From positions 1-57,070 of IMG/VR virus record IMGVR_UViG_3300006919_008385: 57,070 nt of DNA. One strand, given 5' to 3'. Under the pieces are notes generated by a model, which was not told the DNA's origin, did not search any database, and saw only the letters and a list, made by a program, of their open reading frames with translations. The stretch is from a virus. Of the stretch, positions 6,479-55,559 are shown piece by piece (positions within the stretch are counted from its first letter, which is position 1; every line of letters starts with the position of its first letter). The translations under genes were made by a program, and so were the position numbers.

Positions 6479-6834
6479 ATTTTTTCTATAGTTTTAAATA
6501 ATATTAGATAAAATGCTGTTGCAGTAAATGTACTAGCATCAAACTCTAATGCCGCCATAGTAAATGGATTGCCATGCGACAAGTTTGCCAATATGTGATA
6601 GCCAAACATACTCACAAAGTATGCTTTAAACATATTGAGCTTTTTACCTATAAATGTAGCAAATACTACACTAGCAAAATAACCTAATTGTGCTATATCT
6701 AGTCCTACACTAACAAGATAATACACAGTTAATGCCATTAATGGCAAACCATATTGCATTTTGCTGTTAGAACTTAATAATGGCATAAACAATGCCAATG
6801 CTAAAAAGGGTTGAAAGTTAATTATTTCTATCAT
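6451..6834 (-). CDS. Multi-pass membrane protein (DUF6580-like)
   Basis: 127 aa with about four hydrophobic segments and conserved-looking polar spots (FIGKKLNMFKAYF, GYHILANLSHGNPFTMAALEFD). It resembles small ECF-S-component-like/DUF6580 phage proteins, from memory. Overlaps both neighbours (28 and 17 nt). Its substrate, if any, is unknown. Confidence 0.5.
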   Translation of the reverse strand: MIEIINFQPFLALALFMPLLSSNSKMQYGLPLMALTVYYLVSVGLDIAQLGYFASVVFATFIGKKLNMFKAYFVSMFGYHILANLSHGNPFTMAALEFDASTFTATAFYLILFKTIEKIWQKVYQEA

Positions 6835-7267
6835 TTTCTATTTCATATACTCTTTTTCTTAAACTGGTACTACTAAAACTGTGATCTCTGCCATTGTAGA
6901 CCATCTTTATATTTCTGTCTTTACAAATGCTTTTACCAGTAAAAGATTTTGATTTATATTCTTCTCCAATTATTCTTATATTTATAGGAAGTGTTAATAA
7001 CAAGTCCTCTAGGTCTCTTTCTGTAGCATACATCACAATTTCGTCAATATATTTTACTGCCGCAAGTTGTATTTGTCTCTCAACTACACTTTGTATTGGA
7101 GCATTTTTATCTGGTCTGTCTATTGTTGGATCTGTCTGCAGACCCACAATCAGATAATCACAATGTCGTTTTGCTTCTTCTAACATTGTAATGTGTCCTG
7201 CATGAAGCAGATCAAATGTACTACAGGTAAATCCTATAGTGCCACAATCTTTATAATCTAATCTCAA
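6818..7267 (-). CDS. Glycerol-3-phosphate-type cytidylyltransferase
   Basis: 149 aa. STFDLLHAGHI (residues 16-26) is the HxGH nucleotidyltransferase motif, and HSFSSTSLRKR near the C-terminus matches the conserved end of TagD/CDP-glycerol-type enzymes. It transfers CMP from CTP to a phosphorylated alcohol, forming a CDP-activated headgroup. The start is TTG at 7267, overlapping the TGA of the 28-aa gene as TTGA; no suitable ATG exists upstream of the motif. Could serve lipid headgroup or cell-surface chemistry; substrate not decided. Confidence 0.75.
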   Translation of the reverse strand: MRLDYKDCGTIGFTCSTFDLLHAGHITMLEEAKRHCDYLIVGLQTDPTIDRPDKNAPIQSVVERQIQLAAVKYIDEIVMYATERDLEDLLLTLPINIRIIGEEYKSKSFTGKSICKDRNIKMVYNGRDHSFSSTSLRKRVYEIENDRNN

Positions 7268-7350
7268 TGTTTTGGCCTATTGTTTCTGTCATTCCAGATC
7301 ATATAGGCCATCATTACTATTACAACAATTAAAACGTAATCAAAAACCAT
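7264..7350 (-). CDS. Very small single-pass membrane protein (28 aa)
   Basis: MVFDYVLIVVIVMMAY followed by MIWNDRNNRPKH: one transmembrane helix and a basic tail. The ATG overlaps the phosphatase stop and the TGA overlaps the TTG of the cytidylyltransferase, filling an otherwise unexplained gap and supporting translational coupling. Function unknown. Confidence 0.5.
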   Translation of the reverse strand: MVFDYVLIVVIVMMAYMIWNDRNNRPKH

Positions 7351-8089
7351 CTGTAAAATCCAAATACTGCTCTATTTCGCTAGTATCTGTATTTACAATT
7401 ACGCCAAATAATTTACCACCTTTTCCGGCACCACAATCTAAGAATGTAGTGAGCCCTCCTAATTCACTTTCATAAGTTTCAGGATGGTCTTGGAAGTTGT
7501 CAAAATCAGGAATACCAACCATAGGTCTTGGATCATGTCCTACAAATAAATGTACATCTTTTGGGATATATTTTGTCCAGTCGTATGTTCTAATCCAATA
7601 GTCTTGTCCTTTGTGATGATATTGTGGGGCATCAAAGTCTACAGTACCCCATTTAAATACATCTCTTCTTTTTTTGTGCATGTCATCACCAAACTTCCAA
7701 AAGTCAGGATGAGCTCCAGCATGAGCAATATAAATTTTATTGTTTATATTGATATAATCTGTACAATAAGTACATATTTCCATAAAGTTTTTAGCAAACT
7801 CTGGGTTTTCTGTCATCTGATCTATTGTTGCTTGGTTAGGCGGGCCTAATTCTACATTGTTACCAAGTAGATGCCTGTATATTTTCCATTCGTGGTTGCC
7901 CCAAGTAATTCTTGCATGTCCTTTTTTAAGTAGGTATAAAAATTGAGAGCAGACTTCTGCACCATCAGGTCCATTGTCTATAAGGTCCCCAACACAAATA
8001 ATAGGAATATTATTTTGTATAGAATAGTTTACAGCCTTGGTAAATGGAATACCATCTGCGTGAACATCTCCTATTATTAATTGTTTCAT
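7340..8089 (-). CDS. Calcineurin-like metallophosphatase
   Basis: 249 aa. The metal-binding blocks GDVHADG (7-13), GDLIDNGPDG and GNHEW are the PPP/metallophosphatase signature, and FVGHD near residue 200 supplies a later His. The closest relatives would be lambda-type Ser/Thr phosphatases or diadenosine-tetraphosphatases (ApaH-like). Substrate may be phosphoproteins or nucleotide signals. It has its own sigma70 promoter (8114-8141), so early or middle expression is likely. Confidence 0.8.
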   Translation of the reverse strand: MKQLIIGDVHADGIPFTKAVNYSIQNNIPIICVGDLIDNGPDGAEVCSQFLYLLKKGHARITWGNHEWKIYRHLLGNNVELGPPNQATIDQMTENPEFAKNFMEICTYCTDYININNKIYIAHAGAHPDFWKFGDDMHKKRRDVFKWGTVDFDAPQYHHKGQDYWIRTYDWTKYIPKDVHLFVGHDPRPMVGIPDFDNFQDHPETYESELGGLTTFLDCGAGKGGKLFGVIVNTDTSEIEQYLDFTDGF

Positions 8090-8113: not shown

Positions 8114-8141
8114 ATTATAGCAAAAAATGTAAAAATGTCAA
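8114..8141 (-). promoter_or_regulatory. Sigma70-type promoter, 16-bp spacer
   Basis: TTGACA (8136-8141), 16 bp, TATAAT (8114-8119), both consensus. It begins exactly where the SlmA-like gene ends and drives the phosphatase and following genes. Confidence 0.75.
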
Positions 8142-8681
8142 CTAAGAAAGGTTGTTGACTAACACATCATAGTAATAATCTAAGTAACTTGAGGGCAGTT
8201 CTTTAAATTTAGATCTAGAAAATCTAGTATAAATGCCTTCTATTGTGGTTATCATAATTTTGCAATGGTCTTTTGTAAACCCATAACTGCCAAACTCATT
8301 TTCTATGTTCATGAACAGCAGATTAATTTTATCAGATATTTCTTTTTCGTCTATAGACAAACACTCTCTGTTTAAAAATCTTGCAAACCCTGGATTACTT
8401 TCTACAAATAATACTAAAAAATAATACAGAGTTTTTGCTTTTTCCAAATTGTTTACAGGTTTGTTACGGACTTCATATATTTTGTCTATAATAGTCTGCT
8501 CTATAAACTTAAACAATGCCTGAAATATCTCATTTTTACCTTTGTAATGTTTATAGATAGCAGGCTCTGTAATGTCGCTTTTAACTGCTAACACTTTGGT
8601 TGTAATGTTTGGTAAGTCATCTTCTTGTAATAAGTTTACAAGAGATTCTAGTATCATATGTTTTCTATTAACGGTTGCCAT
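8142..8681 (-). CDS. TetR-family regulator resembling nucleoid-occlusion factor SlmA
   Basis: 179 aa. The TetR HTH is at residues about 22-48 (ITTKVLAVKSDITEPAIYKHYKGKNEIF). The rest follows SlmA closely: FKFIEQTIIDKI, then ESNPGFARFL, then KINLLFMNIENEF, then EGIYTRFSRSKFKELPS. SlmA binds chromosomal SBS sites and blocks FtsZ ring assembly over DNA. SlmA is about 195-200 aa, so the length is near normal. A phage copy could stall host division or regulate phage genes. The SlmA assignment comes from pattern memory; a generic TetR repressor is the alternative. The start has AAGGATC upstream; no clear promoter is seen for it. Confidence 0.7.
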   Translation of the reverse strand: MATVNRKHMILESLVNLLQEDDLPNITTKVLAVKSDITEPAIYKHYKGKNEIFQALFKFIEQTIIDKIYEVRNKPVNNLEKAKTLYYFLVLFVESNPGFARFLNRECLSIDEKEISDKINLLFMNIENEFGSYGFTKDHCKIMITTIEGIYTRFSRSKFKELPSSYLDYYYDVLVNNLS

Positions 8682-8696
8682 GATCCTTCAGATTCT

Positions 8697-8727: not shown

Positions 8728-11700
8728 GTGGCACAAGTCAAGAATTACGGATTAATTGGTGTAGGAAATAACCTTCAGTTAGGCAAAAACGGGCCTAAAT
8801 TATTAGGTAATGCAACTACAGATACTGTTCAAGTCACTAATGAGGGTGGCATATCTTTATCTGAAATCCAAGCCGCAAATGCCACAACATCATCTGCATT
8901 AGTCACAAAGGCACAATTAGATGAAGTAAGTTCAAGTGCCGCCTCAGATGGTTTTAGTTTAACACTAGGTAACATAGATGCTAGTGGAGACGGCGATTGG
9001 CATATTACTCCAAACCAAGGAGACTACGAAGGTAATACATCAGTAACCAGACAAGGTGCTGTTACTAGTTTATCAAATACAGAAAAAGTATCAGAAGCGA
9101 TTGACAAAATTAACGAAGCAGTATTAAATGTATATAATGATACTTTTGTTAGAGATGTAGACTTTACTGTTGATAATAGTACAGGTGGTAGTCCACTTGT
9201 AAGTACACTGACAATTAGTGCTACAGGTAATGCTAACAGATATACAATTGATTGGGGAGATGGCACCTCAACAACTGCAACAAGCGATAGTACTCCTACT
9301 CATACATATACTGATAATACTAACTCTCCTTTTGATGTAGTAGTTACAGCATTTAATAATTTAGGTGCAGGAGAAGGCAGTACAACAAGTTTAACAAAGA
9401 ACAATTTTATTACATTATACACAGCAGACCCAGTTGCTGACTTTAAATTTTATGCGGCATCAAGTGGTGGTAGTAATGTAAGTATAGTTGATGACGGTAC
9501 AGCATTGTACTTTGACAATGACACTACAAATATTGGTAGTGCAGACGCCACATACAGAATTGAGTGGGGCGATGGAAGTGCTAATGCTAATATATCAGCA
9601 GATACAGATGCTGGTGGTACACAAGGAACCAGATTAGCTCATACATTTACAACATCAACGGAAACAGATCAATTAAGAACAGTAAAATTAACACTTTTAA
9701 CTCATACTACAGCAGATCCTAGCACAGTTCCTAACAATACATCTGCAATAGTTAAAGTTTACGATACTCATACACCAGATATATCAGCAAACACCACTAA
9801 CGTAATTAATGAACAAGGAACAAGTGGTGGCGTTGTTCAGTTTACTAATAATACTGAAGCAACAATAGGAAGTTATGCTGATTTTGGAATAATTTACAGA
9901 TATAATTGGGGAGACGGCACAAGTTCAGATGTAAACGTAGGTGCTGGAGGCTCAGGTGATACAGGCGGAACAATTAATCACACTTATGAATTAAGTGGAG
10001 CAGAGCAAAGCAGTGGTGCTAATGCAGACTATACTGGTAACTTACAGGTTATCTCAAGTCATACAGGCTCACCATTTACAAGTACAGACTTTACAATTCA
10101 TGTTGAACCAGACGTTAGAGCAAGTATCACAGGCTCAACAACTACTCCTGGATTAACATCATCAAACGATAACAATTTAACACTTTATAATGGCACAGAC
10201 CTTAGTGGTACTGACAGAGCAGAAGTTACAATAGATAACAACTCTGTAAATGGAACGGTTTACTCTTATGATTGGGGAGATAGTACTAGTAATGCTAACA
10301 TAACATCAGGTGCTGGTGATTTATCATCAAACATTACCCATTCATATAATGGACAAAGTGCTGGAAACTATACAACAACTATAACAGTTACAGGTACTCC
10401 AGATATCACAGCACAAAGTGATACAGATACTGTAGTATTTTCATTAGAAAATGTACCAGCCGCACCTGCTAGTGTGTCTAGCAAAAGTTTAACACTTAGT
10501 ACAAGTGCTCAAGACACTAGTAAATTGGCTAGTGGTGCCGAAGATGCCACAGGTGGTTCACTTGCGGCAGGTAGCAGTTTAAATAGTACAACTGCTAGAA
10601 GATATGATACAACAACAAGTGTTAATACAAATACAATAAGTGATGCTTATAGAAGTGATAGTGGAACAGCAAGTGCTCTTATAGATGGCGTTGCAGATGG
10701 TACCAAAGCATTTACTACTTCAACTGGAGAGACAGGAACATTTACTTCTTTAGTTATTACCAATGAGGGTGATGCTTACAATGAGATTAGTTCAACAACA
10801 TATCCTCAAAACTTCTATCAGGTATTCACAGGAAGAATTACAAAAGATATTAGTAGTATAAACTCAGGTGTTCACAGTATGGCTATTAGTCATGACAGCA
10901 CAGGTACTACTAATAATGTTTATATAGTCAAAGACAATGTTACAGGTGTTCCAACAGTTAATATTGGTAGTGCTACACTAGAAGAAGAAACACAAGGAAC
11001 ATATAGATATGTTTCTGGTGTACCATATTATAACAGTGGCTCACCACAAGTTAAACTAGTAAGTGCCACAGTTGATAACCTAACAGGACAAGCATACTTA
11101 GATAGTAGCAGTATATTTGATATTGCTAGTGGTATTAATGCTGAAGGTACAAGTAGTTCAGCAGTACAACAAGAAAGCAGAACTTATGCTCAAATAGATG
11201 GAGCAAGTAGTTTATTATCAAGTGGTACACCTATTGCTAATGTTGGTGTAGCAAGTAGTTATGCTTTAGGCAATGTTATATGTGACATTACAAGCAGTTC
11301 AGTAGCAACTGTAGAAGGTATTAAGTTTAGAGCTCAAAATGTAAACGGTTACAGTAGTTATACAGCAGATCATGGCACTAAATTACAAGTTTGGTCAGCA
11401 ACACCAAGTTTTGATGAGACAAGCATAAGTGTTAGTGCTAGTTTAGGTGCTGGTTTTGATGACGGTGGAGTTAGAATTACAGGACATGGTAGTAGTTCAG
11501 ATACTCCTGCTTTTGATAATGCCGTTAATAACTATACAGCAAATGCTTGGAGTGGTGCTGAAACAGTAGCAAGTACCTCAGAAGCAATAAACAGATTCAA
11601 TACTGTACAACATTTTGATACAGATTTAAGTTCAGGTTATTTACCCGCAGGTCCAGACTTGAACACAGGCAGAAGTGGAGCTCAATACTTCACTTTTGCT

Positions 11701-12060
11701 TTCCGTAGAACCACAATGAGTAACTTTACTGTAACACTTACAGGTACAGTTAGTGGGTTCTTTATAGCCGCACCAGGCACAGATATAGATAATGCTTCAG
11801 GCTTAAATGGCTGGTTAGATGCTGGTACTACATACGCAGGTAGTGGTACTCCAGGATCTGATACAGGCAATGGTGGTAATGGCTCAAATGGTTGTGCTTT
11901 TACATCTGGTGACAGAATACTAGATGGTACAGCATACTCAGGAGATACATTTACACTAACATTAGGTGATCAAAATGCCACAGATGCTACAGGCAACAAC
12001 ATATTGGTTAGAATTAAACTAGAAGACGGAGACTCTTTTACTGGATTGAGTATAAGTTAA
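8728..12060 (+). CDS. Large PKD-repeat virion fibre/adhesin
   Basis: 1110 aa, GTG start with a good Shine-Dalgarno. Residues 1-70 (VKNYGLIGVGNNLQLGK, then ALVTKAQLDE) match the N-termini of two other virion genes (43045 and 43660), so this is probably a shared attachment module. At least four PKD/Ig-like repeats follow, each with a WGDG or WGDS core (about residues 170, 280, 395 and 515) and a later HTY/HTF/HSY strand. The C-terminal half is Ser/Thr/Gly-rich beta structure. PKD domains mediate protein or glycan binding; here a receptor- or surface-adhering fibre is inferred. Translationally coupled to the next gene. Confidence 0.75.
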   Translation: MAQVKNYGLIGVGNNLQLGKNGPKLLGNATTDTVQVTNEGGISLSEIQAANATTSSALVTKAQLDEVSSSAASDGFSLTLGNIDASGDGDWHITPNQGDYEGNTSVTRQGAVTSLSNTEKVSEAIDKINEAVLNVYNDTFVRDVDFTVDNSTGGSPLVSTLTISATGNANRYTIDWGDGTSTTATSDSTPTHTYTDNTNSPFDVVVTAFNNLGAGEGSTTSLTKNNFITLYTADPVADFKFYAASSGGSNVSIVDDGTALYFDNDTTNIGSADATYRIEWGDGSANANISADTDAGGTQGTRLAHTFTTSTETDQLRTVKLTLLTHTTADPSTVPNNTSAIVKVYDTHTPDISANTTNVINEQGTSGGVVQFTNNTEATIGSYADFGIIYRYNWGDGTSSDVNVGAGGSGDTGGTINHTYELSGAEQSSGANADYTGNLQVISSHTGSPFTSTDFTIHVEPDVRASITGSTTTPGLTSSNDNNLTLYNGTDLSGTDRAEVTIDNNSVNGTVYSYDWGDSTSNANITSGAGDLSSNITHSYNGQSAGNYTTTITVTGTPDITAQSDTDTVVFSLENVPAAPASVSSKSLTLSTSAQDTSKLASGAEDATGGSLAAGSSLNSTTARRYDTTTSVNTNTISDAYRSDSGTASALIDGVADGTKAFTTSTGETGTFTSLVITNEGDAYNEISSTTYPQNFYQVFTGRITKDISSINSGVHSMAISHDSTGTTNNVYIVKDNVTGVPTVNIGSATLEEETQGTYRYVSGVPYYNSGSPQVKLVSATVDNLTGQAYLDSSSIFDIASGINAEGTSSSAVQQESRTYAQIDGASSLLSSGTPIANVGVASSYALGNVICDITSSSVATVEGIKFRAQNVNGYSSYTADHGTKLQVWSATPSFDETSISVSASLGAGFDDGGVRITGHGSSSDTPAFDNAVNNYTANAWSGAETVASTSEAINRFNTVQHFDTDLSSGYLPAGPDLNTGRSGAQYFTFAFRRTTMSNFTVTLTGTVSGFFIAAPGTDIDNASGLNGWLDAGTTYAGSGTPGSDTGNGGNGSNGCAFTSGDRILDGTAYSGDTFTLTLGDQNATDATGNNILVRIKLEDGDSFTGLSIS

Positions 12061-13133
12061 TGGCAATATCAGATAGTCAAAAGGTAGATTTACTTTGGAA
12101 AAAGGTCGGCTTCGGCAAAATGAAGACTGACACCAATGCCAATAAGAAAGCACCTAACGAAGCCACAGTCTCAGATCCTATCATTAAAACTTCTAGTATT
12201 TGGTCACAATCAGGTAGTATTCCAGGCACAATACCTTCAGCAAATAGCAGTATAGTAAATGTATATTCAGATGCTATAAGTGGTAGTTTAGAAACTACAG
12301 AAGATGGTACATCATCAGATAACAGAACATGGAAAACAGGTTCCACAAACTGGGTGCCGCCTAGTTTTGGTTCCACATATCAGTTAAAAGTTTATGCTGG
12401 TGCTACAGGTTTAAGTAATGTACAATCAAGTGGTACACAATTATTTGAAACAGGCTCCGGTAATGACGACCAATGGTACTTTGACTATCAATCTGGTGTG
12501 CTACATTTTATTGGTACAAACTTACCTACAGATATTGGTACAGGAACCAGTAATGTAATTTATGTAAGTGGTGCTAGATATGTAGGCAGTACAGGTATTA
12601 GTGCGGCGGCAAGTGGTGCTAGTGCTACAGTATTTAAAGCAGATTTAAGTGCTCTTTATTCTGACAGTACAATTAATGCTGGTGATATTATTGTTGTAAC
12701 AGACAATGGTGATGGTGAATATGCTGTTTATGTTTCTAATCAAGATGCTCCTACACAGGCAAGTCATTTAACAACACTCACAACTAGAGATAGTGCCACA
12801 GTAGATGCTGGTACACTAAAAACAGATGTTATACACACTAGTGGTAATGTAACATTAGGTAACGTAAGTAATGGTAGTAAAGTTGTTGAAGTTACAATTA
12901 CTGTTAATACAGTATTTGATAGTGCTAGTGCTGGAATAACTGTAGGTGACGATACTGACACTGACAGACTGTTTAGTAATGATTATGTTGACTTAACATC
13001 ATTAGGCTCTTATGTTGTAAACCCAAATTACATTTACACAGGTACATTAGATAGTGCTAACACTATTAAGACTTATGTAACTCAGGGTACTGCTACGCAA
13101 GGTAATGCAACTGTTACTGTTGTTTATCAGTAA
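12060..13133 (+). CDS. Fibre-associated virion protein
   Basis: 357 aa. The start overlaps the fibre stop (TAATG). The N-terminus is helical and basic (SQKVDLLWKKVGFGK), like short attachment helices. The C-terminal 100 residues (GSKVVEVTITV, ITVGDDTDTDRLF, YVTQGTATQGNATVTVVY) align by eye with the C-termini of the 43045 and 43660 products, a shared beta domain. It is likely a fibre, hinge or fibre-tip partner. No enzymatic motif. Confidence 0.6.
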   Translation: MAISDSQKVDLLWKKVGFGKMKTDTNANKKAPNEATVSDPIIKTSSIWSQSGSIPGTIPSANSSIVNVYSDAISGSLETTEDGTSSDNRTWKTGSTNWVPPSFGSTYQLKVYAGATGLSNVQSSGTQLFETGSGNDDQWYFDYQSGVLHFIGTNLPTDIGTGTSNVIYVSGARYVGSTGISAAASGASATVFKADLSALYSDSTINAGDIIVVTDNGDGEYAVYVSNQDAPTQASHLTTLTTRDSATVDAGTLKTDVIHTSGNVTLGNVSNGSKVVEVTITVNTVFDSASAGITVGDDTDTDRLFSNDYVDLTSLGSYVVNPNYIYTGTLDSANTIKTYVTQGTATQGNATVTVVYQ

Positions 13134-18463: not shown

Positions 18464-18925
18464 ATGAAAATAATTCGGCTATCATTTGAACAAATATCTG
18501 ACGTCTGGAAAGAACATTTATGGCCTAACAGAGTAAGTCCTATTGAAACTCATAGTGCTATGACATGGCCTTACCAAGGTAATCCAGAAGAATATGATAT
18601 GAATATTTTTAATTATCCTGCATTATTTTTTGGTGTGATAAGTGATTATAAAATAATAGGAGTCAATTCAGGACATCGTACTACAGATCAGCAATACAGA
18701 AGTAGAGGTATATGGGTGAACCCAGACCACAGACGCAAAGGTATTAGTCAAATGTTATTTGAAGCAACAAAAGATCAGGCTATTAGTGAAGGATGTAAAA
18801 TGATTTGGAGTATTCCAAGAAAAACCGCCCTGCCAGCCTATACCAAATTTGGTTTTGAGACTGTGGGCGATTATATTAAAACTGAAACTTCAGACGCAAA
18901 TATTTATGTTAAATTAACTTTTTAA
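18464..18925 (+). CDS. GNAT-family N-acetyltransferase
   Basis: 153 aa. The acetyl-CoA motif A is seen as GIWVNPDHRRKGISQMLFEAT (about residues 83-103), with R/K-x-G-x-S/G in place. A later Y-x-K-F-G-F block is typical of GNATs. Substrate unknown; in phages GNATs can modify host proteins, toxins or tRNAs. A leaderless late mRNA is predicted because TATAAATA ends 5 nt before the ATG and there is no Shine-Dalgarno. Isolated plus-strand gene between two minus-strand operons; its end overlaps the peroxiredoxin end by 12 nt. Confidence 0.75.
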   Translation: MKIIRLSFEQISDVWKEHLWPNRVSPIETHSAMTWPYQGNPEEYDMNIFNYPALFFGVISDYKIIGVNSGHRTTDQQYRSRGIWVNPDHRRKGISQMLFEATKDQAISEGCKMIWSIPRKTALPAYTKFGFETVGDYIKTETSDANIYVKLTF

Positions 18926-19432
18926 ATAGTTAAGAATAGTATCAGCATCACTTACTTCAAATGGATCTCCATCAGCATTATCACTTAATCCAGGTTCCAC
19001 CCAAAGATTTTCTACTTTGTAATCGTCGACAATCATACTATATCTCCAACTACGCATACCAAAACCAATGTTAGTTTTGTCCACTAAAAATCCTAATGTT
19101 CTAGTAAATTGGCCTGAACCATCTGGAATTGGTTTAACTTTTTGTATATCTAAATTTTTAAACCATGCATTCATTACAAAAGTATCATTAACACTCATGC
19201 AATAAATATCATCTACTCCATGTTTACAGATCTCATCGTAATAAGCATCATAAGTTGGTAAATGAGTACTTGAACATGTTGGTGTAAATGCTCCAGGTAA
19301 TCCAAATAACACTACACGTCTGTTAGCAAATATTTCTTCAGAGGTTAAATCATGCCATTTAAAGCCTGGTGCCTCGTCAGTTTCAACTCTAGTTTTAAAT
19401 GTAACATTTGGTACATATAAATCTATTGCCAT
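18914..19432 (-). CDS. Peroxiredoxin (Prx5/type II-like)
   Basis: 172 aa. LFGLPGAFTPTCSSTHLP (about residues 43-60) carries the peroxidatic Cys in the PxxxTxxC context, and SVNDTFVMNAWF and FGMRSWRYSMIVDD are typical of the Prx5 subfamily. It reduces hydrogen peroxide and organic peroxides. Last gene of the SUF operon, with its own AATAAATA octamer at 19456-19463 and an AGGAGAG ribosome-binding site. Protecting newly built Fe-S clusters from peroxide is a sensible inference. Confidence 0.85.
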   Translation of the reverse strand: MAIDLYVPNVTFKTRVETDEAPGFKWHDLTSEEIFANRRVVLFGLPGAFTPTCSSTHLPTYDAYYDEICKHGVDDIYCMSVNDTFVMNAWFKNLDIQKVKPIPDGSGQFTRTLGFLVDKTNIGFGMRSWRYSMIVDDYKVENLWVEPGLSDNADGDPFEVSDADTILNYLKS

Positions 19433-19455
19433 TTTTCTCTCCTATTATATTACGT

Positions 19456-19463
19456 TATTTATT
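19456..19463 (-). promoter_or_regulatory. Late-type octamer before the peroxiredoxin
   Basis: AATAAATA on the minus strand in the 36-bp gap between the SufT-like and peroxiredoxin genes, 23 nt upstream of the ATG, with a Shine-Dalgarno in between. It suggests extra expression of the peroxiredoxin. Confidence 0.45.
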
Positions 19464-19468
19464 TTAAC

Positions 19469-19792
19469 TTATAACAAACCCATTTGATATTTGGCTTCAT
19501 CAGATACATGTATATCTGGATTCCATGGTGGGTCAAATGTTAAATTTATTTTTACTAAATTAGTGTCTTTTACACTACGCACAGCAAACTCTGTTTCCAT
19601 CATTATCATCTCACCAAAAGGACAATTAGGTGCTGTGAGTGTCATCAAAACTTGTACATCATTTTCTTCATTTACATCTATATTGTATATAAGACCCAAG
19701 TCAACTATATTGATACCTATTTCAGGATCAACTACTCGTTTAAGATTACTTCTAACCTTATCCTCTATACTAATTTCTGAATTGCTTTGCAT
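19469..19792 (-). CDS. sufT: SufT/PaaD-like (MIP18 family) Fe-S maturation protein
   Basis: 107 aa. VVDPEIGINIVDLGLIY, LTAPNCPFGEMI and FDPPWNPD are the MIP18/DUF59 signature, including the conserved Cys and the DPPW motif. SufT-type proteins help mature or deliver Fe-S clusters and are often encoded with sufBCDS. It overlaps the sufS 3' end by 28 nt. A PaaD role is unlikely as no phenylacetate genes are present. Confidence 0.8.
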   Translation of the reverse strand: MQSNSEISIEDKVRSNLKRVVDPEIGINIVDLGLIYNIDVNEENDVQVLMTLTAPNCPFGEMIMMETEFAVRSVKDTNLVKINLTFDPPWNPDIHVSDEAKYQMGLL

Positions 19793-20964
19793 AATGAATC
19801 TGATAATTTAAATATATCTTCTTTACTTGTATAGATACCAGGACTTATTCTTAAAACTCCTTTGCCACCACTTACTTTATTTACAATAGGATGAGCACAA
19901 AGTTTCCCCACTCTTACAGCAATGTTGTCTAATCCCAAAAAGGCACTAACATCACTTGGGTGATATCCAGTACAGGTAAATGTATAAACATATCTGCCAT
20001 TTTGTCTGTAATCTTTGTATATTAAATCCAGTCCTTTAATGTTAAAAATATCTGAATCACTCATAGCAAAATCTAAACCAGTAAAGTGTTCTTTAAAGTT
20101 TTCATATTTTAAATAATTCATCCATTCGGCCGCTCTGCCTAATCCTAATATACCTGCTAAGTTAGGTGTGCCAACTTCGTGTTTTGTAGGACCATCGTAA
20201 AACTCTACATTCCCTTTTAAATCATAATGTACTACGGAGCCTCCTCCTAATCTTACAGAACGATGTCTTTCAAAAGGCAGTCTACTATATAAAACTCCTA
20301 CACCTGTTGGACCATACATTTTATGACCACTAAAAACAGCATAGTCATATGTATAACTATCGAACTCATGTGTACCTATTGTTTGACAAGCATCTATAAC
20401 TACCTTTATTCCTTGGTTGTGTGCCATTTTACATAACTTTTTGCAACTTGATGGTATGCCAGTTACATTACTATGACTGTGAATACTTAATAGAGCATAA
20501 GGATATTTTTCAAACACTTTATTTGCTTCATCTAAATTTATTTTACCTGAGTCTGTAATAGGAAGTACAACCAATCTACCGTTTTCTGTTGTTCTATTTT
20601 GTGCTATCCAAGGCAATATATTTGCTGTATGTTCTGCTTCGGTAATTATTACTACAGGCATGTCTTTATACCAGTCTGCTACTATGTTAAGACCTTCTGT
20701 TGCACCTGATGTAAACATAATTTGATCAGGCTTTGCTTTAATTAGTTTGGCAAATTCTTCTCTAGCAGTTTCTATATCAGCACTTACCTTTTGGCTAATA
20801 GGAAAATCTCCTCTGTTTGCATTACATCTTTCTTCTTCATAATACTGGTTCATACGATCTAAAACACTTTGATGCGTTTGCGTACTGGCGGCACTATCCA
20901 AATAAACTAATTCTGGATTGTTTACTAGTGTTGGAAACTCTTCTTTTATGTTGTTATAAAGCAT
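19765..20964 (-). CDS. sufS: Cysteine desulfurase SufS
   Basis: 399 aa. It has the PLP lysine motif SGHKMYGPTGVGVLY (about residues 213-227), LDSAASTQTHQ at the start, GATEGLN, ACQTIGTHEFD and the active-site Cys in VRVGKLCAHPIV. It supplies persulfide sulfur for Fe-S assembly. Full length for a SufS. No SufE or SufU acceptor is in the window, so it may use the host's. It starts by overlapping the sufD end by 19 nt. Confidence 0.9.
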   Translation of the reverse strand: MLYNNIKEEFPTLVNNPELVYLDSAASTQTHQSVLDRMNQYYEEERCNANRGDFPISQKVSADIETAREEFAKLIKAKPDQIMFTSGATEGLNIVADWYKDMPVVIITEAEHTANILPWIAQNRTTENGRLVVLPITDSGKINLDEANKVFEKYPYALLSIHSHSNVTGIPSSCKKLCKMAHNQGIKVVIDACQTIGTHEFDSYTYDYAVFSGHKMYGPTGVGVLYSRLPFERHRSVRLGGGSVVHYDLKGNVEFYDGPTKHEVGTPNLAGILGLGRAAEWMNYLKYENFKEHFTGLDFAMSDSDIFNIKGLDLIYKDYRQNGRYVYTFTCTGYHPSDVSAFLGLDNIAVRVGKLCAHPIVNKVSGGKGVLRISPGIYTSKEDIFKLSDSLCKAIQKLV

Positions 20965-22160
20965 CTTTTTAATAATTCCTCAGACTCAAAGTCGTTTATG
21001 CCTCTACTCTCCAAGTAGTATAGCATGTCTTTATCCAAATTACTTATAGTACATCCATGAGTACATATAACTTCTTTGGTGTTAATGTCTAGTTGAGGCT
21101 CAGTAATCATTGTATTCTTATTGCTTAACATTAAATTTTTATTCTCTAAATGTGCCTCTGTGTTTTCTGCTTCTTTGTTTATGTTAATTTTACCAATAAA
21201 ACTTGAATGTGAATTATCATCTCCTATAGTTCTTACGTCAACAATACTGCTACTGTTAGGACTCAAATGATTTACATTAACAGTCATATTATTAGTATAA
21301 TTTTCAAATAAATTAAAATTTCCTATTACATTTGTATCACAATCGTTATAAATGTCAAACTCCATATTATCCTGATTATGTTTACTGCCTTCTCCAAATA
21401 CTTCCACTGTGACTTTACTGCCAGGAAACTGTATAAATTTACTATCTATAACATTACATGCTCTGTCTTTATTGTTGTAATCATGTTTTCTGTTAAGGTT
21501 CAACTTAACATTGTCTCTTACAATATATGTTATGTTATATAATTTTACACCATCTTTATTTTCAAAAAATTCATCTAATGTCAATTTTGTATTTTTACCT
21601 ATATCTATTATAGCAAACACACAATTAACATCTTTGTCTTTATAACTATCAGCATAACAAATACTTTGAGCAAAATTTTTATTGGCATAATATTTTATGC
21701 CTACTGGGCCTGTACTATTAATTACAGCATAATCTGACAGTCTGTTATTTGGTTTAAAATATGGCTCATATAATTTTATTTTGCTGTACTTGGAATACAA
21801 ATCAAATATTTTAAAATAATCATATTGATAAGGCCTATACATACTGGTACCATTGTGTACATCAGATATAAATCCATCATCTATGACTACATCAAATTGT
21901 TCTGTATAATTAGATAACCAGTCTTCCTTTTTATTTGAGCTAGAGTTAGCAATTAAATCAACATCTCTAAGAGTTTTTAGATTCATGTTTTTATAAAAAT
22001 TATTTTTTAAAGGAGATCCTTTTTGTACTAAACTGTTAAAAAATCCGTCTACTAAGTTAGGTAACACATTATTTGCTACAGTATTAGATACCATATTATT
22101 TCGTAAACCAAAGTTCACTAGGTTATGCAACTCATCTATATTGTATGTAACTTTAGACAT
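20946..22160 (-). CDS. sufD: Fe-S scaffold component SufD
   Basis: 404 aa. The start MSKVTYN at 22160 overlaps the sufC stop; an extended start 30 nt upstream is rejected. The C-terminal core is clear: SSFIGKININKEAENTEAHLENKNLMLSN, then EPQLDINTKEVICTHGCT, then LYYLESRGI, including the conserved Cys-x-His-Gly. The N-terminal half is divergent and Asn/Lys-rich. SufD joins SufB and SufC in the SufBC2D scaffold. Confidence 0.85.
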   Translation of the reverse strand: MSKVTYNIDELHNLVNFGLRNNMVSNTVANNVLPNLVDGFFNSLVQKGSPLKNNFYKNMNLKTLRDVDLIANSSSNKKEDWLSNYTEQFDVVIDDGFISDVHNGTSMYRPYQYDYFKIFDLYSKYSKIKLYEPYFKPNNRLSDYAVINSTGPVGIKYYANKNFAQSICYADSYKDKDVNCVFAIIDIGKNTKLTLDEFFENKDGVKLYNITYIVRDNVKLNLNRKHDYNNKDRACNVIDSKFIQFPGSKVTVEVFGEGSKHNQDNMEFDIYNDCDTNVIGNFNLFENYTNNMTVNVNHLSPNSSSIVDVRTIGDDNSHSSFIGKININKEAENTEAHLENKNLMLSNKNTMITEPQLDINTKEVICTHGCTISNLDKDMLYYLESRGINDFESEELLKRCFITT

Positions 22161-22869
22161 ATTCTTCAAAGCCATTAACCAACACATCATTTGCTAGTGT
22201 AATGTCACCTCTAACAACTTTATCCTTACCTAAAATTGTTACTGTATCTACATTAAGGGAATTTATTAATTGTGAATAGTGACTTATAATTAAAACTATT
22301 TTGTCTGGTTTTTGTGAGAATACATTTAAAAACTTTATTAAATGTTTTATAGCATCTACATCTAATCCACTGTCTGGCTCATCTAATATTACACATTTAG
22401 GATCTAACAATTCCATTTGTATTAACTCATTCTTTTTCTTCTCGCCGCCACTTGCTTCTACATTCAATTGCTTTTTATCCCAATTATCAGGCAGTTTAAA
22501 TGTTTCTGCTAATTGTTTAAACTCATTTAAATTTTCTGTTAGCCTCTTTGCATCATCTCTTCTAGATAGTACCTGATGTAATAATTGAAAGTTACTTAAA
22601 CCTTCAATGGGTGTAGGTTGCTGAAAGCCCAAAAACAATCCTGCCTGAGCTCTTTCAAATGTAGGCATAGCCAACAAGTCTTTACCATAAAACTCTACAG
22701 CACCTTCAGTAATGTAATTGGGATTTCCCATAAGAGCATGAGCAAATGTACTTTTGCCTACTCCATTAGGACCCATTATGATATGAACACCAGGACCAAA
22801 CTCCAGATGTAAATCATTTAAAACTATTTGATCTTCAACTTTTACTGAAAACTCTTGTGTAACTATCAT
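22153..22869 (-). CDS. sufC: Fe-S assembly ATPase SufC
   Basis: 238 aa ABC ATPase. Walker A GPNGVGKST (about residues 34-42), Q-loop FLGFQQPTPIEG, signature ASGGEKKKNELIQM and Walker B CVILDEPDSGLD, the last two in the SufC-specific form. It powers the SufBC2D scaffold. Overlaps sufD by 8 nt and abuts sufB. Confidence 0.9.
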   Translation of the reverse strand: MIVTQEFSVKVEDQIVLNDLHLEFGPGVHIIMGPNGVGKSTFAHALMGNPNYITEGAVEFYGKDLLAMPTFERAQAGLFLGFQQPTPIEGLSNFQLLHQVLSRRDDAKRLTENLNEFKQLAETFKLPDNWDKKQLNVEASGGEKKKNELIQMELLDPKCVILDEPDSGLDVDAIKHLIKFLNVFSQKPDKIVLIISHYSQLINSLNVDTVTILGKDKVVRGDITLANDVLVNGFEEYV

Positions 22870-24314
22870 TATCCTACTGCTCCTTCTAGTGTAACACTCA
22901 GCAATTTATTTGCCTCTGCGGCAAATTCCAAAGGAAGTTTTTGAAAAACATCCTTACAAAATCCATTTACAACACAATTAACTGCGTTCTCTTCGTCTAA
23001 ACCTCTGCTTTGTAAATAATACAAAGCCTCTTCTGACAGTTTACCTGTACTGGCTTCATGCTCTACTATACTGCTGTTATTATACTGCATAACCACAGGT
23101 AATGTCAATGCCTTACTGTTATCTAACATTAAACTATCACATTGTGTATAGTTTCTACTGTTATGAGCATTTTTATTGACCCTTACCATTCCTCTGTATG
23201 TGTTACTACTGTCTCCAAAACTTATGCCTTTGGATATAATGGTGCTCTTGGTATTTTTACCAACATGCAACATCTTTGTTCCTGTGTCTGCCATTTGTTT
23301 GCCTTTGGTTACAGCAACACTATAAAACTCACCAACACTATTATCGCCTCGTAATATACAACTTGGATATTTCCAAGTAACGGCACTACCTGTTTCAACC
23401 TGTGTCCAACTAATCTTACTGCTTTCACCTTTACATAATCCTCTCTTAGTTACAAAATTTAATACGCCACCAACACCATTTTCATCTCCTGGGTACCAGT
23501 TTTGTACTGTACTATATTTAATCTCTGCCCTGTCATGTGCTACCAGCTCTACTACAGCCGCGTGTAGTGTGTTCTCATCATATGCTGGAGCAGTACAACC
23601 TTCTAAGTAACTGACATAACTGTCCGCATCTGCTATAATCAGTGTTCTTTCAAACTGTCCTGTATTACGAGCATTGATGCGGAAGTATGTGTTTAATTCC
23701 ATTGGGCATTTAACTCCCTTAGGAATATAACAAAAGGTGCCGTCCGTAAAGACGGCACTATTTAGGCAAGCGAAGTAATTATCCTTGGCTGGGATAATAC
23801 TACCTAAATACTCTTTTACGAGTTCGGAATGTTCTTGTATGGCTTCACTTATACTGCAAAATATAATGCCATGTTTCTTTAATTCTTCTTGGAATGTTGT
23901 GGCAATACTAACACTATCAAATACTGCGTCAATGGCCACTGTGGGTATTTTGTTTTCTGCTTCTATACCAAGTAGAGAATCTCTTTCGTGTAGAGGGACA
24001 CCTAACTTTTCAAATGTATCTAAGATCTCTTGTGGAATGTCTTCTTTGTTTCTAAACTTGGGTGCTGAATAATAACTTAATGCTTGGTAATCTATAGGTG
24101 CATAGTTTACATGAGCCCATGTAGGTTCTTTTATTTTTTGTAGATGTTCAAATGCTTTTAGTCTAAACTCAGTTACCCATTCAGGTTCGTTTTTTATTGC
24201 ACTAAGTTTTCTTACTACCTCTTCTGTAAGTCCAGGTTCAAAGTCCTCAGAGTCTACGACTGTTTCGAATCCAGCAGTATATTGATTGGATGTTATTTTA
24301 CTATAGTCAGTCAA
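22869..24314 (-). CDS. sufB: Fe-S scaffold protein SufB
   Basis: 481 aa, full length. It has SDSVSI-like [82 protein letters not shown] and [21 protein letters not shown]. Strongly conserved relative to sufD. It forms the main cluster-assembly site with SufD. Overlaps clpS by 8 nt. Confidence 0.92.
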
Positions 24315-24606
24315 TTTTCTCTACCATAATAGTTAATGGGTGTCCATTGTTCCTACTTATAGCAACGGCTTCTGCTTTCTTTTGCTCAGCAAGTTCAAAG
24401 TTATATGTACCTGCTATGCCTTTTCCTTTTTCATGGATTAACATTGTAATATCCTTTGCTTGTTCTAAGTTTCTATTAAAAACTTCTATCAGCAACTGAA
24501 TTACAAAATCCATAGGAGTAAAGTCGTCGTTAAGTAGCACCACATTATATCTATTAGGATAGGTGACGTCAGTCTGTGTAATTGTATCAGATTGTGTTTG
24601 TGCCAT
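24307..24606 (-). CDS. clpS: ClpS N-degron adaptor
   Basis: 99 aa. [20 protein letters not shown] carries the DD and M residues of the N-end-rule pocket, and [20 protein letters not shown] and [12 protein letters not shown] complete the family pattern. ClpS delivers N-degron substrates to ClpA in bacteria. The window has clpX but no clpA or clpP, so it probably acts on the host ClpAP, or competes with host ClpS. Starts on the bL33 stop (TAATG). Confidence 0.9.
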
Positions 24607-31726: not shown

Positions 31727-32109
31727 TATCTATTTCCTCTGAGTTTTTGAATTTTTTCTCTGCCCATGTATTCTTTTCTTCTCTGACGTTTGCCCTTAAG
31801 ATGTTTTTGGCCAGTAACAGGAGTTGGCATCCATTCGCCTCGCATAATCATAATGTCTAATTCTTTATTACGACGTTTGATTGCTTGATCTTTTTTGCGT
31901 TTTCTTTTAGCAGATGGTTTTTCATAATACTCTCTTTTAGAAAGTTCTTTCTGGAAGTCCATCTTCTCTAATACTTTTTTAAGTTTTCTTATTGCAAGAT
32001 TTACGTTGCCGTTAACGACTGTAATTGAACGACCTTTATCTACTATTTTAGTATTTTCGGGTCGTTTAACCTTCCAGTTTTTATTAAAATTTTGTTTGTG
32101 TTTATTCAT
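31726..32109 (-). CDS. rpsU: Ribosomal protein bS21-like
   Basis: 127 aa. The middle (about residues 28-80) is bS21: ITVVNGNVNLAIRKLKKVLEKM, then LSKREYYEKPSAKRKRKK, then AIKRR. A host bS21 is about 70 aa; here basic N- and C-terminal extensions (28 and about 45 aa) are added. bS21 lies at the mRNA exit near the anti-Shine-Dalgarno, so a phage version could favour phage mRNAs. Phage bS21 genes are known from marine phages. It overlaps clpX by 8 nt. Confidence 0.88.
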   Translation of the reverse strand: MNKHKQNFNKNWKVKRPENTKIVDKGRSITVVNGNVNLAIRKLKKVLEKMDFQKELSKREYYEKPSAKRKRKKDQAIKRRNKELDIMIMRGEWMPTPVTGQKHLKGKRQRRKEYMGREKIQKLRGNR

Positions 32110-33370
32110 CTATTTGTCTGTATACCTTATAATTAGCATCTAATTCCTCTCTGCCATCCAAAACCAGGACAGGATACTTATCTTTACTAGATGGATAATG
32201 ATTAAATTTTACTGTTTTTACGCCCATTTCTTTTAAATCTTTTATTCTAAACATAATATTTACAATACTATTCTCAACAATACTCTTTAATGACCTTGCT
32301 CCTGTTGATGTTTTAACAGCCATATCAGCAACATTGTTGTAATATTCATCAGCAAATTCTAATGCTATATCATCCACCTCCATTAATGAGGATACCTGAA
32401 GTATAACACTATTCTTGACGTTTGTCAAGATATTTTTATATTGATCTTTATTAAGATTTTCCATTATACCAATTACAGGAAGTCTACCTATTAACTCTGG
32501 TATAAGACCATAATCTACTATATCTTGTTCAGTAATTTTTCCTAAAAGTGCTCTTCTATCATCAGTACCAACAATTTTACTTCCAAATCCTATTGTGCTG
32601 GCCTTTTTTAAACGTTTTTCTATAATTTTTTCTATGCCTACAAAAGCACCACCCACAATAAATAATACATTGGATGTATCAAAATCCACGAAATCGTCTG
32701 ATATTTTTTTACCTGAATTTACTCTTACTTTTGCTGATGTACCTTCTATAAGTCTTAACAATGCCTGTTGTACACCTTCGCCTGAAACATCTCTGGTGCC
32801 TGTATTTGATTCACTACGCCTAGCCTTTTTGTCTATCTCATCTATAAACACTATACCTCTTTGTGCTAATTCTACATCAAAGTTTGCCAGATTAACTAGA
32901 CGTCCCAGAACACTCTCTACATCTTCTCCCACATAACCTGCTTCAGTGAGTGTGGTGGCGTCAGCAATAGCAAATGGTACACCTAATTTTTCTGCAAGTG
33001 TTTTTACTAATAATGTTTTACCTGTTCCTGTAGAACCTAATAATAATATATTAGATTTTTCTATTTTAATCTCTTTAATTTTATTACTAATTCTTTTATA
33101 ATGATTATAAGAACTAACACTCAATACCTCTTTGACAGAGTCTTGCCCAATTACATATTCATCCAGGTAATCTTTTATTTCTTGAGGTTTAGGAATATCT
33201 TCAAATTCAAAGTCTAATAAATCTAATTGAGTTTCATCTTTTACAATGTCATAGCTCAGTGTTATACATTCATTACAAATGTAAGCATCAGGTCCTGCTA
33301 TAAGTTTTTCAACTTCTTCTCTTTTCTTCCCACAAAAATTACAATTTAGGTGTTTGTTATCATCCTTCAT
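32102..33370 (-). CDS. clpX: AAA+ unfoldase ClpX
   Basis: 422 aa, full length. The N-terminal zinc domain has C10, C13, C32 and C35. Walker A is GSTGTGKT, pore loop 1 AGYVGED, Walker B IVFIDEIDK, and the later STIGFGSK holds the IGF loop that docks ClpP. All features for unfolding and for binding host ClpP are retained. No clpP is in the window. Operon: coiled-coil membrane protein, clpX, bS21, fusion, ferritin. Confidence 0.92.
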   Translation of the reverse strand: MKDDNKHLNCNFCGKKREEVEKLIAGPDAYICNECITLSYDIVKDETQLDLLDFEFEDIPKPQEIKDYLDEYVIGQDSVKEVLSVSSYNHYKRISNKIKEIKIEKSNILLLGSTGTGKTLLVKTLAEKLGVPFAIADATTLTEAGYVGEDVESVLGRLVNLANFDVELAQRGIVFIDEIDKKARRSESNTGTRDVSGEGVQQALLRLIEGTSAKVRVNSGKKISDDFVDFDTSNVLFIVGGAFVGIEKIIEKRLKKASTIGFGSKIVGTDDRRALLGKITEQDIVDYGLIPELIGRLPVIGIMENLNKDQYKNILTNVKNSVILQVSSLMEVDDIALEFADEYYNNVADMAVKTSTGARSLKSIVENSIVNIMFRIKDLKEMGVKTVKFNHYPSSKDKYPVLVLDGREELDANYKVYRQIDE

Positions 33371-35422: not shown

Positions 35423-35908
35423 TTATTTCTCAGAATCTACGAATCGAATCTTCTGAGTGTCTGCAAGTTCGCATGTTGCACTATTGGCTTCATGTTCTCT
35501 TACAGTGACCTTTTGTACCCAGCATCTGCCATTGCTGATATCCTTAACAATTTCATCTGCTTTGTCAAAGGCCATTTCGGCAAACCGTTCACACCCTGTT
35601 GCTTTTACAACTCTCATGTCAATAAGACCTTTGTCTTGTAACAATTGAACTGTATCCATCTCAGGATCGTCCTCGGCTACCAAATAAGTATGGTCAAACA
35701 TTTCTTTTAACCATTGTTTTAGTTCTTTTAAACCACCAAAGTCCACAGCCCAGTTGCGATCATCTAATTCATCACAACCAAATGTAAACTCAAACTGTAG
35801 TGCATAGCCATGAATTAAATTACAGTGACTATCTGCTCTCCATTGTCTAAATGCACAACTATGACCTGTTGCGTGGGTATATGTTTTACCTGAATAAAAA
35901 CGTTTCAT
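35423..35908 (-). CDS. queD: 6-carboxytetrahydropterin synthase-like (QueD/PTPS)
   Basis: 161 aa. The zinc His set H12 (ATGHS), H29 and H34 (SHCNLIHGY) is present, together with WAVDFGGLKEL, FDHTYLV, CERFAEMAF and VREHEANSA. QueD makes 6-carboxytetrahydropterin in the 7-deazaguanine (queuosine/preQ0) pathway. No queC, queE or folE is in the window, so host enzymes or genes elsewhere must complete it. A sigma70 promoter gives early or middle expression. Confidence 0.85.
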   Translation of the reverse strand: MKRFYSGKTYTHATGHSCAFRQWRADSHCNLIHGYALQFEFTFGCDELDDRNWAVDFGGLKELKQWLKEMFDHTYLVAEDDPEMDTVQLLQDKGLIDMRVVKATGCERFAEMAFDKADEIVKDISNGRCWVQKVTVREHEANSATCELADTQKIRFVDSEK

Positions 35909-54343: not shown

Positions 54344-54718
54344 ATGAACGAAATAGCAAGATTACAACAATTAGCAGGTATAGTATCAGAAGGTGACGGT
54401 GAGCCTGGAGTAGATTACAGATCAGACACCGGTGAAGGCGAAACTAAAAAAGTTGCTGTTGGTCATATAGATAACGAAAGAGGCATGATATCTAAAGAAT
54501 TATACCTTATTGGTAAAAATGCTATAGAACTTCACAAAATGTTAAAAGACTTGCCTGACTCAGATTTCCCACACTGGTGGCAAGCCAAAGTGGTTAAAGC
54601 TCATGAGTATTTGGAAGGTGCTAAAAATTATCTAGAAGCAGAACTTAAAGAACCTGAATCAGATCCTATTCCAAGTGACGACATGATGTCAAATGACGAC
54701 CCTAGTGGCGTTAGTTAA
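54344..54718 (+). CDS. Acidic 124-aa protein with LAGI leader
   Basis: MNEIARLQQLAGIVSEGDG starts an acidic helical protein (ISKELYLIGKNAIELHKML, WWQAKVVKAHEYLEGAKNYL). The start at 54344 is chosen, 1 nt after the upstream stop. The LQQLAGI leader parallels two sites in the previous protein. A capsid-targeting or assembly signal is possible. Convergent with the GH6 gene (8-nt overlap). Confidence 0.55.
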   Translation: MNEIARLQQLAGIVSEGDGEPGVDYRSDTGEGETKKVAVGHIDNERGMISKELYLIGKNAIELHKMLKDLPDSDFPHWWQAKVVKAHEYLEGAKNYLEAELKEPESDPIPSDDMMSNDDPSGVS

Positions 54719-55559
54719 TATCTTTTACTAACTCTGCACCCATTTCAGGCCAAAACCTACCAGCTCTAGGACCACCATTACCTTTTCCGTCAGACTCACC
54801 TGGTATCTTTACCCATAAAAAGGCATCGCATTTAGGCTCTCCTGTATCGCAACTAGGAACTTTACCTACATGTCTACCAGGAGGATTGCACCAGTCATTA
54901 CCATGTGGACCATTGCCATTACGGCTGGTGTCTATAATAAAATGCCAGTCTTCGTTGTATTCACACACCTTTAAAGCCCATTTCATGCTCTCTTCTGTGC
55001 TTCTGTAATTACTTACATTAACACTAAACCCTCTTATACCTGCGTTAGATACACTAGAAATTAGCTCTGATGCTTGTTCTGGACTAAGCCAATTACTGTG
55101 ACCTATGTCTACATATACATAAGCATCACTCTCTTCTGCCATAATATCTAGTCCTGCCTTAATAAGATTTACACGATACTCAGCATCTTTTTTATCCATT
55201 AAAGTAGTATGTGGTAATGCATCTGGTTCAAATATAACTATTGGTTTATGCCCTTTAATACCAGCACAAAACTCTTGTAAGAACAATAAGTATTCAGTTG
55301 CGTCAGAGGCTCCTCCTTTGCTGTAATGCCCTAAGTCTCTGTTAGGTAAGTTGTATATTACAAAGTAAGGTAGTTTGGGTGCTGTACGATTAAATAGTCT
55401 TTTTAGGCTTTTTTTTAATTTTGCGTAGGCATTTTTATTACGTTTAGCACCATACCAAAATGCTACAGGTTGTTCAAATATTTTGGCTACTTCTGGGTGG
55501 GTAAGTCTGTGATCTTTAACTCTGTCAAAATCATTTACCCAAAAAGGATAATCAAGCAT
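54711..55559 (-). CDS. GH6-family beta-1,4-glucanase (cellulase)
   Basis: 282 aa. GH6 motifs in order: FVIYNLPNRDLGHYSKGGA, IVIFEPDALPH (catalytic Asp), VYVDIGHSNWLSP, RGFSVNVSNYRST, FIIDTSRNGNG, DWCNPPGRHVG and FLWVKIPGESDG (base Asp). GH6 enzymes cut cellulose and beta-glucan. No signal peptide and no carbohydrate-binding domain, so the product is a bare catalytic domain that would need lysis or virion placement to meet its substrate. Overlaps the deformylase gene by 8 nt. Confidence 0.9.
   Translation of the reverse strand: MLDYPFWVNDFDRVKDHRLTHPEVAKIFEQPVAFWYGAKRNKNAYAKLKKSLKRLFNRTAPKLPYFVIYNLPNRDLGHYSKGGASDATEYLLFLQEFCAGIKGHKPIVIFEPDALPHTTLMDKKDAEYRVNLIKAGLDIMAEESDAYVYVDIGHSNWLSPEQASELISSVSNAGIRGFSVNVSNYRSTEESMKWALKVCEYNEDWHFIIDTSRNGNGPHGNDWCNPPGRHVGKVPSCDTGEPKCDAFLWVKIPGESDGKGNGGPRAGRFWPEMGAELVKDIN

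Follow-up and report, generated by a model that had tools for sequence, protein, structure and literature searches.

Control of Z-ring position by a DNA-bound protein is common to the closest described systems, namely SlmA, the nucleoid occlusion factor of gamma- and betaproteobacteria, which keeps a cell from dividing across its DNA, and, in Bacillus subtilis, the TetR-fold protein RefZ and the ParB-like protein Noc, whose fold differs from that of SlmA. To our knowledge, phages block division with small peptides that bear no relation to the regulators of the host; T7 Gp0.4 is a phage FtsZ inhibitor of this kind, a small unrelated peptide without DNA binding. Lambda Kil is likewise a small unrelated peptide that does not bind DNA (PMC3961180), and it shares with the phage SlmA described here one possible outcome, a block of host division, whereas the latter would be of a host-derived, DNA-activated type. 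In E. coli, genetic analysis mapped FtsZ inhibition by SlmA to F65, R73, L94, G97, R101, N102, and L105 in helices 4 and 5; changes at F65, R73, and N102 abolish anti-FtsZ activity while largely sparing DNA binding, and site-directed F65Y and R101A substitutions are tolerated (PMC3573117). Judging from their titles, PDB entries 5hbu and 5k58 contain SlmA with the FtsZ tail bound. SlmA of Vibrio cholerae also activates the chb operon, for which FtsZ binding is not needed (PMC5519180), and overproduced E. coli SlmA that is unable to bind DNA still inhibits division (PMC4117426).

The stretch of DNA analyzed here (the window) is a 57,070-base IMG/VR virus record, a marine phage fragment that also encodes a match to a baseplate hub/tail lysozyme, QueD, a peptide deformylase, a ClpX-like protein, and members of several PHROG families. 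The original prediction held that one of its genes resembles slmA along its whole length, beyond the TetR helix-turn-helix (HTH), and this proved correct. NCBIfam model NF007015 (SlmA) aligned with residues 3 to 176 of the product over model positions 9 to 195 of 197 (E = 4.1e-32; 111.4 bits, slightly under the curated cutoff of 120 bits), and the features named in advance, helix 1, an NPG block (residues 96 to 98), and a C-terminal TRFSRSKF segment (152 to 159), were all present. SlmA was the sole full-length NCBIfam match. The TetR, MtrR, and AcrR models covered the N-terminal part only, at E values of 1e-5 or worse; the margin of SlmA over the next family exceeded 25 orders of magnitude, with no generic TetR family fitting better. 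The RefZ model matched SlmA of SAR86 only at 1e-5 to 1e-4 and did not appear among the matches listed for the protein of the window. Pfam SlmA-like_C (PF22276) scored 42.8 bits against a cutoff of 27, TetR_N (PF00440) was also above its cutoff, and the seven best PDB sequence matches were all SlmA (3e-23 to 9e-18, with the next at 1.8e-3).

The predicted structure agreed with the sequence-based assignment. An AlphaFold2 model built from 52 sequences had a pLDDT of 94, and the ten best PDB entries were all SlmA (Z = 17.8 to 23.9; best non-SlmA TetR protein, 17.6), with 4gck superimposing at 1.4 Å over 176 residues. A structural search of BFVD gave no significant match, which does not prove absence from that collection. 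The product shares with SlmA of E. coli, V. cholerae, and SAR86 full-length homology, the fold, N102, T33/T34, E45, and the FtsZ groove, and it is about 13 residues shorter than E. coli SlmA between helices 7 and 8. The resemblance cannot be due to chance, and the gene is a true slmA homologue. Its coordinates and those of the neighboring features are collected in Table 1.

Table 1. The slmA locus of the window, with flanking genes and mapped regions.
Feature	Position	Strand	Basis
slmA homologue, 179 aa	8142..8681	-	NCBIfam SlmA 4.1e-32; PDB SlmA 3e-23; AlphaFold2 model matching 4gck at Z 23.9; three phage contigs with sister copies
TetR-type HTH, residues 25-49 (E. coli 31-55)	8535..8609	-	column counts in a 53-row alignment
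FtsZ-binding region, helices 4 and 5, residues 59-99 (E. coli F65 to L105)	8385..8507	-	mapping to the mutants of PMC3573117
Shine-Dalgarno-like AAGGA, 2 nt upstream of the slmA ATG	8684..8688	-	sequence
12/12 sigma-70-type promoter immediately past the slmA stop codon, directed toward the metallophosphatase gene	8114..8141	-	consensus match only
Calcineurin-like metallophosphatase	7340..8089	-	Pfam Metallophos 9e-10; restricted to the four slmA contigs among the phage loci examined
Cytidylyltransferase-like protein, conserved neighbor	6818..7267	-	Pfam CTP_transf_like 5e-14; 75-82% identical in three sister phages
Large phage protein, PHROG 8578 (no annotated function), divergent from slmA	8728..12060	+	E 5e-61; conserved in place in all sister phages
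Phage protein, PHROG 9417, after the PHROG 8578 gene	12060..13133	+	E 4e-35

A single-sequence viral scan with the window protein returned no relatives; these came from two-row and four-row profiles together with scans using neighboring genes. An alignment-based scan recovered a 54% identical copy in contig L003 (IMGVR 3300018416_004481), and scans with two neighboring genes plus a local SlmA profile recovered copies in L177 (46%) and L104 (44%). All three sister copies, which are 44 to 54% identical to the window copy, are free of stop codons, and they scored 121.7, 131.2, and 117.9 bits against NF007015, two of them above the cutoff. A further profile scan found only the same three contigs. 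Two other candidates, L004 and L005, turned out to be host slmA genes beside prophages, and a third, L087, was an unrelated TetR gene.

The four slmA contigs share a PHROG 8578 protein, which is probably a tail fiber or tip, a PHROG 9417 protein, slmA, the metallophosphatase, and the cytidylyltransferase; in three of them, the DNA read also includes the NAD synthase and GGCT-like genes. L104 differs in that its slmA has shifted beyond the cytidylyltransferase and no longer neighbors the divergent gene. More than 20 related phage contigs have the same neighbor genes without slmA; most are fragments, which makes this absence weak evidence. The metallophosphatase could be a functional partner of slmA or simply a subclade marker, given its restriction to these contigs.

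Some records filed as phage do carry host slmA. Among 50,697 phage records, SlmA matches reached at most 29% identity, and the annotated ones were enterobacterial host DNA; no copy of the window type was apparent among these matches, and megablast with the first 25 kb of the window found no relatives in the collection. MG065691, MG065686, and OR845735, filed as Campylobacter or Escherichia phages, contain an enterobacterial-type slmA that is 28.8% identical to the window copy and is probably host DNA. Such records, like the prophage-adjacent L004 and L005, are what would make one suspect host contamination or a chimeric contig at our locus as well. However, four independent contigs combine slmA with the same phage neighbors, a synteny that already refutes contamination, and the nearest sequenced SAR86 copy is at most ~41% identical over the length of the phage copy; we regard this explanation as extremely improbable. 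Sequence and fold make the gene product a SlmA; what is new is its carrier, together with the altered surface that reads DNA. The original prediction knew of no well-described phage SlmA, and a title and abstract search of the open-access literature found no earlier report of one.

We then placed the phage copies in a phylogeny restricted to SlmA sequences, other TetR families having been excluded by the family and PDB scans. In the IQ-TREE phylogeny, the four phage copies formed one clade (100/99) joined to SlmA of SAR86 at 100/98; two long branches meet inside the phage clade, and its inner order is unsure. The ten closest of the 80 best bacterial loci belonged to SAR86 or to marine metagenome-assembled genomes without a genus name, and the nine that could be placed in the tree grouped as a SAR86 clade (36 to 45% identity in the best segment). 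When 185 genomes drawn from the class were compared, SAR86 likewise ranked first by a wide margin (122.8 bits; next, 80.1), and SAR86 copies scored 153 to 184 bits against the SlmA model, above the cutoff. In L010, the single SAR86 locus inspected, slmA directly follows a phosphomannomutase-like gene; such a gene also lies near slmA in other gammaproteobacteria. The expected gammaproteobacterial connection was thereby narrowed to a SAR86-like donor, and the position of the phage clade beside SAR86 makes a single acquisition from a SAR86-like gammaproteobacterium, kept since, the simplest reading. Pairwise differences among the four phage genes were 0.37 to 0.50, 0.26 to 0.34, and 0.56 to 0.64 at codon positions 1, 2, and 3, respectively, indicating long-term selection.

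The one gene that points to SAR86 as the host is slmA. No SUFBD genes were found in five SAR86 genomes, and tRNAs were uninformative for host assignment. The window itself carries a SUF iron-sulfur set at 18914 to 24314 on the minus strand (SufB, a SufC-like ATPase, SufD, SufS, a DUF59/SufT-like protein, and a peroxiredoxin). Its SufB is 88% identical in L104, 72 to 78% identical in other marine phage contigs, and about 67% identical at best in the sampled bacteria.

To assess the FtsZ-binding surface, we mapped the E. coli residues onto the phage proteins. F65, R73, L94, G97, R101, N102, and L105 correspond to F59, K67, F88, L91, S95, N96, and F99 of the window copy. The positions F65, R73, N102, and L105, needed for FtsZ inhibition in E. 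coli, thus read F, K, N, and F in the window copy, with K and F being the SAR86 states. N102 is invariant across all phage and cellular rows, and K73, F94, and F105 are common to all phages and all SAR86-clade copies. At these seven positions, a residue found in SAR86 occupies 24 of 28 phage cells, compared with 340 of 672 (51%) over 168 columns, and only 0.6% of random seven-column sets reached this count. The comparison of FtsZ-contact residues thus found the surface retained in its SAR86 form, although a conserved pocket can also reflect the fold or plain ancestry. Position 65 is Y in L177 and H in L104, and position 101 is S or I in two phage copies, with I in L104; H at F65 together with I at R101 may weaken FtsZ binding in L104. 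The FtsZ C terminus of SAR86, DFLDVPTFMRKQVD, is close to that of E. coli, DYLDIPAFLRKQAD.

These observations favor, on balance, a phage product that binds DNA, antagonizes host FtsZ, and blocks host division. The protein would dimerize and bind DNA through its HTH, and the DNA-bound dimer would use the groove formed by helices 4 and 5 to grip host FtsZ by its C-terminal tail. This would break up FtsZ polymers and prevent Z-ring assembly over the bound DNA, leaving the infected cell undivided.

The DNA-reading region tells a different story from the FtsZ site. All four phage copies retain T33, T34, E45, Y49, H51, and K55 in the HTH, the DNA-binding residues T33 and E45 being invariant, whereas the neighboring R50 and S54 are changed. 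R50, invariant in cellular rows, is K in all four phages, P53 is K or S, S54 is G or N, and A46 is P or S in three copies; the window copy carries R50K, P53K, and S54G. Over columns 44, 46, 50, 53, and 54, a SAR86 residue occupies 5 of 20 phage cells, a descriptive count from columns chosen post hoc. The suggestion that the phage might carry SBS-like palindromes was not borne out: the E. coli SBS, GTGAGTACTCAC, was not enriched in the window, with 12 matches at up to three mismatches against 18.8 expected. It was not enriched in five SAR86 genomes either. This SBS need not define SlmA beyond the E. coli/Vibrio side, and the changed HTH may read another site. Given the HTH replacements and the lack of SBS enrichment, the operator is probably one other than the E. 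coli SBS. A search upstream of the four slmA genes yielded no inverted repeat or palindrome in common. A palindrome shared by three slmA phages, ACCAAATTTGGT, was rejected as an operator; it sits in the conserved coding region 18464 to 18925 and its homologues.

The same changes bear on what the protein does. One tentative possibility is that the phage captured a host nucleoid occlusion factor and altered its DNA-reading surface while keeping its grip on FtsZ, so that division would be prevented near phage DNA and not at sites on the host chromosome, as a viral nucleoid occlusion system. The main rival to FtsZ inhibition, to which we give a fairly low probability, is a SlmA-derived transcription regulator that uses the TetR fold at phage or host promoters, for example at the adjoining divergent boundary, and has lost its action on FtsZ. 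The chb operon of V. cholerae offers a precedent, slmA lies 46 bp from the divergent structural gene, and both the altered DNA-reading region of the four copies and the histidine at position 65 in L104 would suit such a role. Yet the FtsZ site is better kept than the rest of the protein, with N102 invariant, no palindrome common to the four slmA upstream regions was detected, and the L104 gene has been relocated away from the divergent gene. It is also conceivable, at a lower probability, that the protein acts as a decoy and disturbs host nucleoid occlusion, either by pairing with the host SlmA or displacing it or by titrating FtsZ while free of DNA. Conservation of R175, at the dimer interface, in all four phages would fit this, as would the division block caused by DNA-binding-deficient E. 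coli SlmA, but the kept HTH residues speak against it, and E167 is Q in two phages, as if pairing with host SlmA were not conserved.

The slmA gene and its structural neighbor point in opposite directions. A 12/12 sigma-70-type site, a consensus match only, terminates 6 bases upstream of the slmA start codon in L003, where the start of the metallophosphatase gene overlaps with slmA; at the slmA/metallophosphatase junction, sites matching at 12/12 and 11/12 positions are present in the window and L177. The T4-late-like motif TATAAATA was not enriched in the window. The sigma-70-type sites near slmA suggest that the cassette would be transcribed early by the host polymerase, and slmA is probably an early phage gene.

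Other genes of the window may relate to division or are unusual for a phage. A QueD-like gene lies at 35423 to 35908 (minus strand), and its involvement in division control is conceivable because QueE, of the same pathway, is reported to moonlight as an E. coli division regulator (PMC11142719). The same genome encodes a ClpX-like ATPase with a zinc finger (32102 to 33370, minus strand) and a ClpS adaptor (24307 to 24606, minus strand); E. coli ClpXP degrades FtsZ (PMC3983244). A glycosyl hydrolase family 6 domain (54711 to 55559, minus strand; E = 1e-49) is of the cellulase type and unexpected in a phage.

By capturing SlmA, these phages would have made a viral tool of a host checkpoint; they appear linked to SAR86, a lineage that is abundant in the ocean and mostly uncultured. 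Phage SlmA makes it possible to test directly whether holding back host division benefits a phage, and its diverged variants provide a natural set for separating DNA choice from FtsZ binding.
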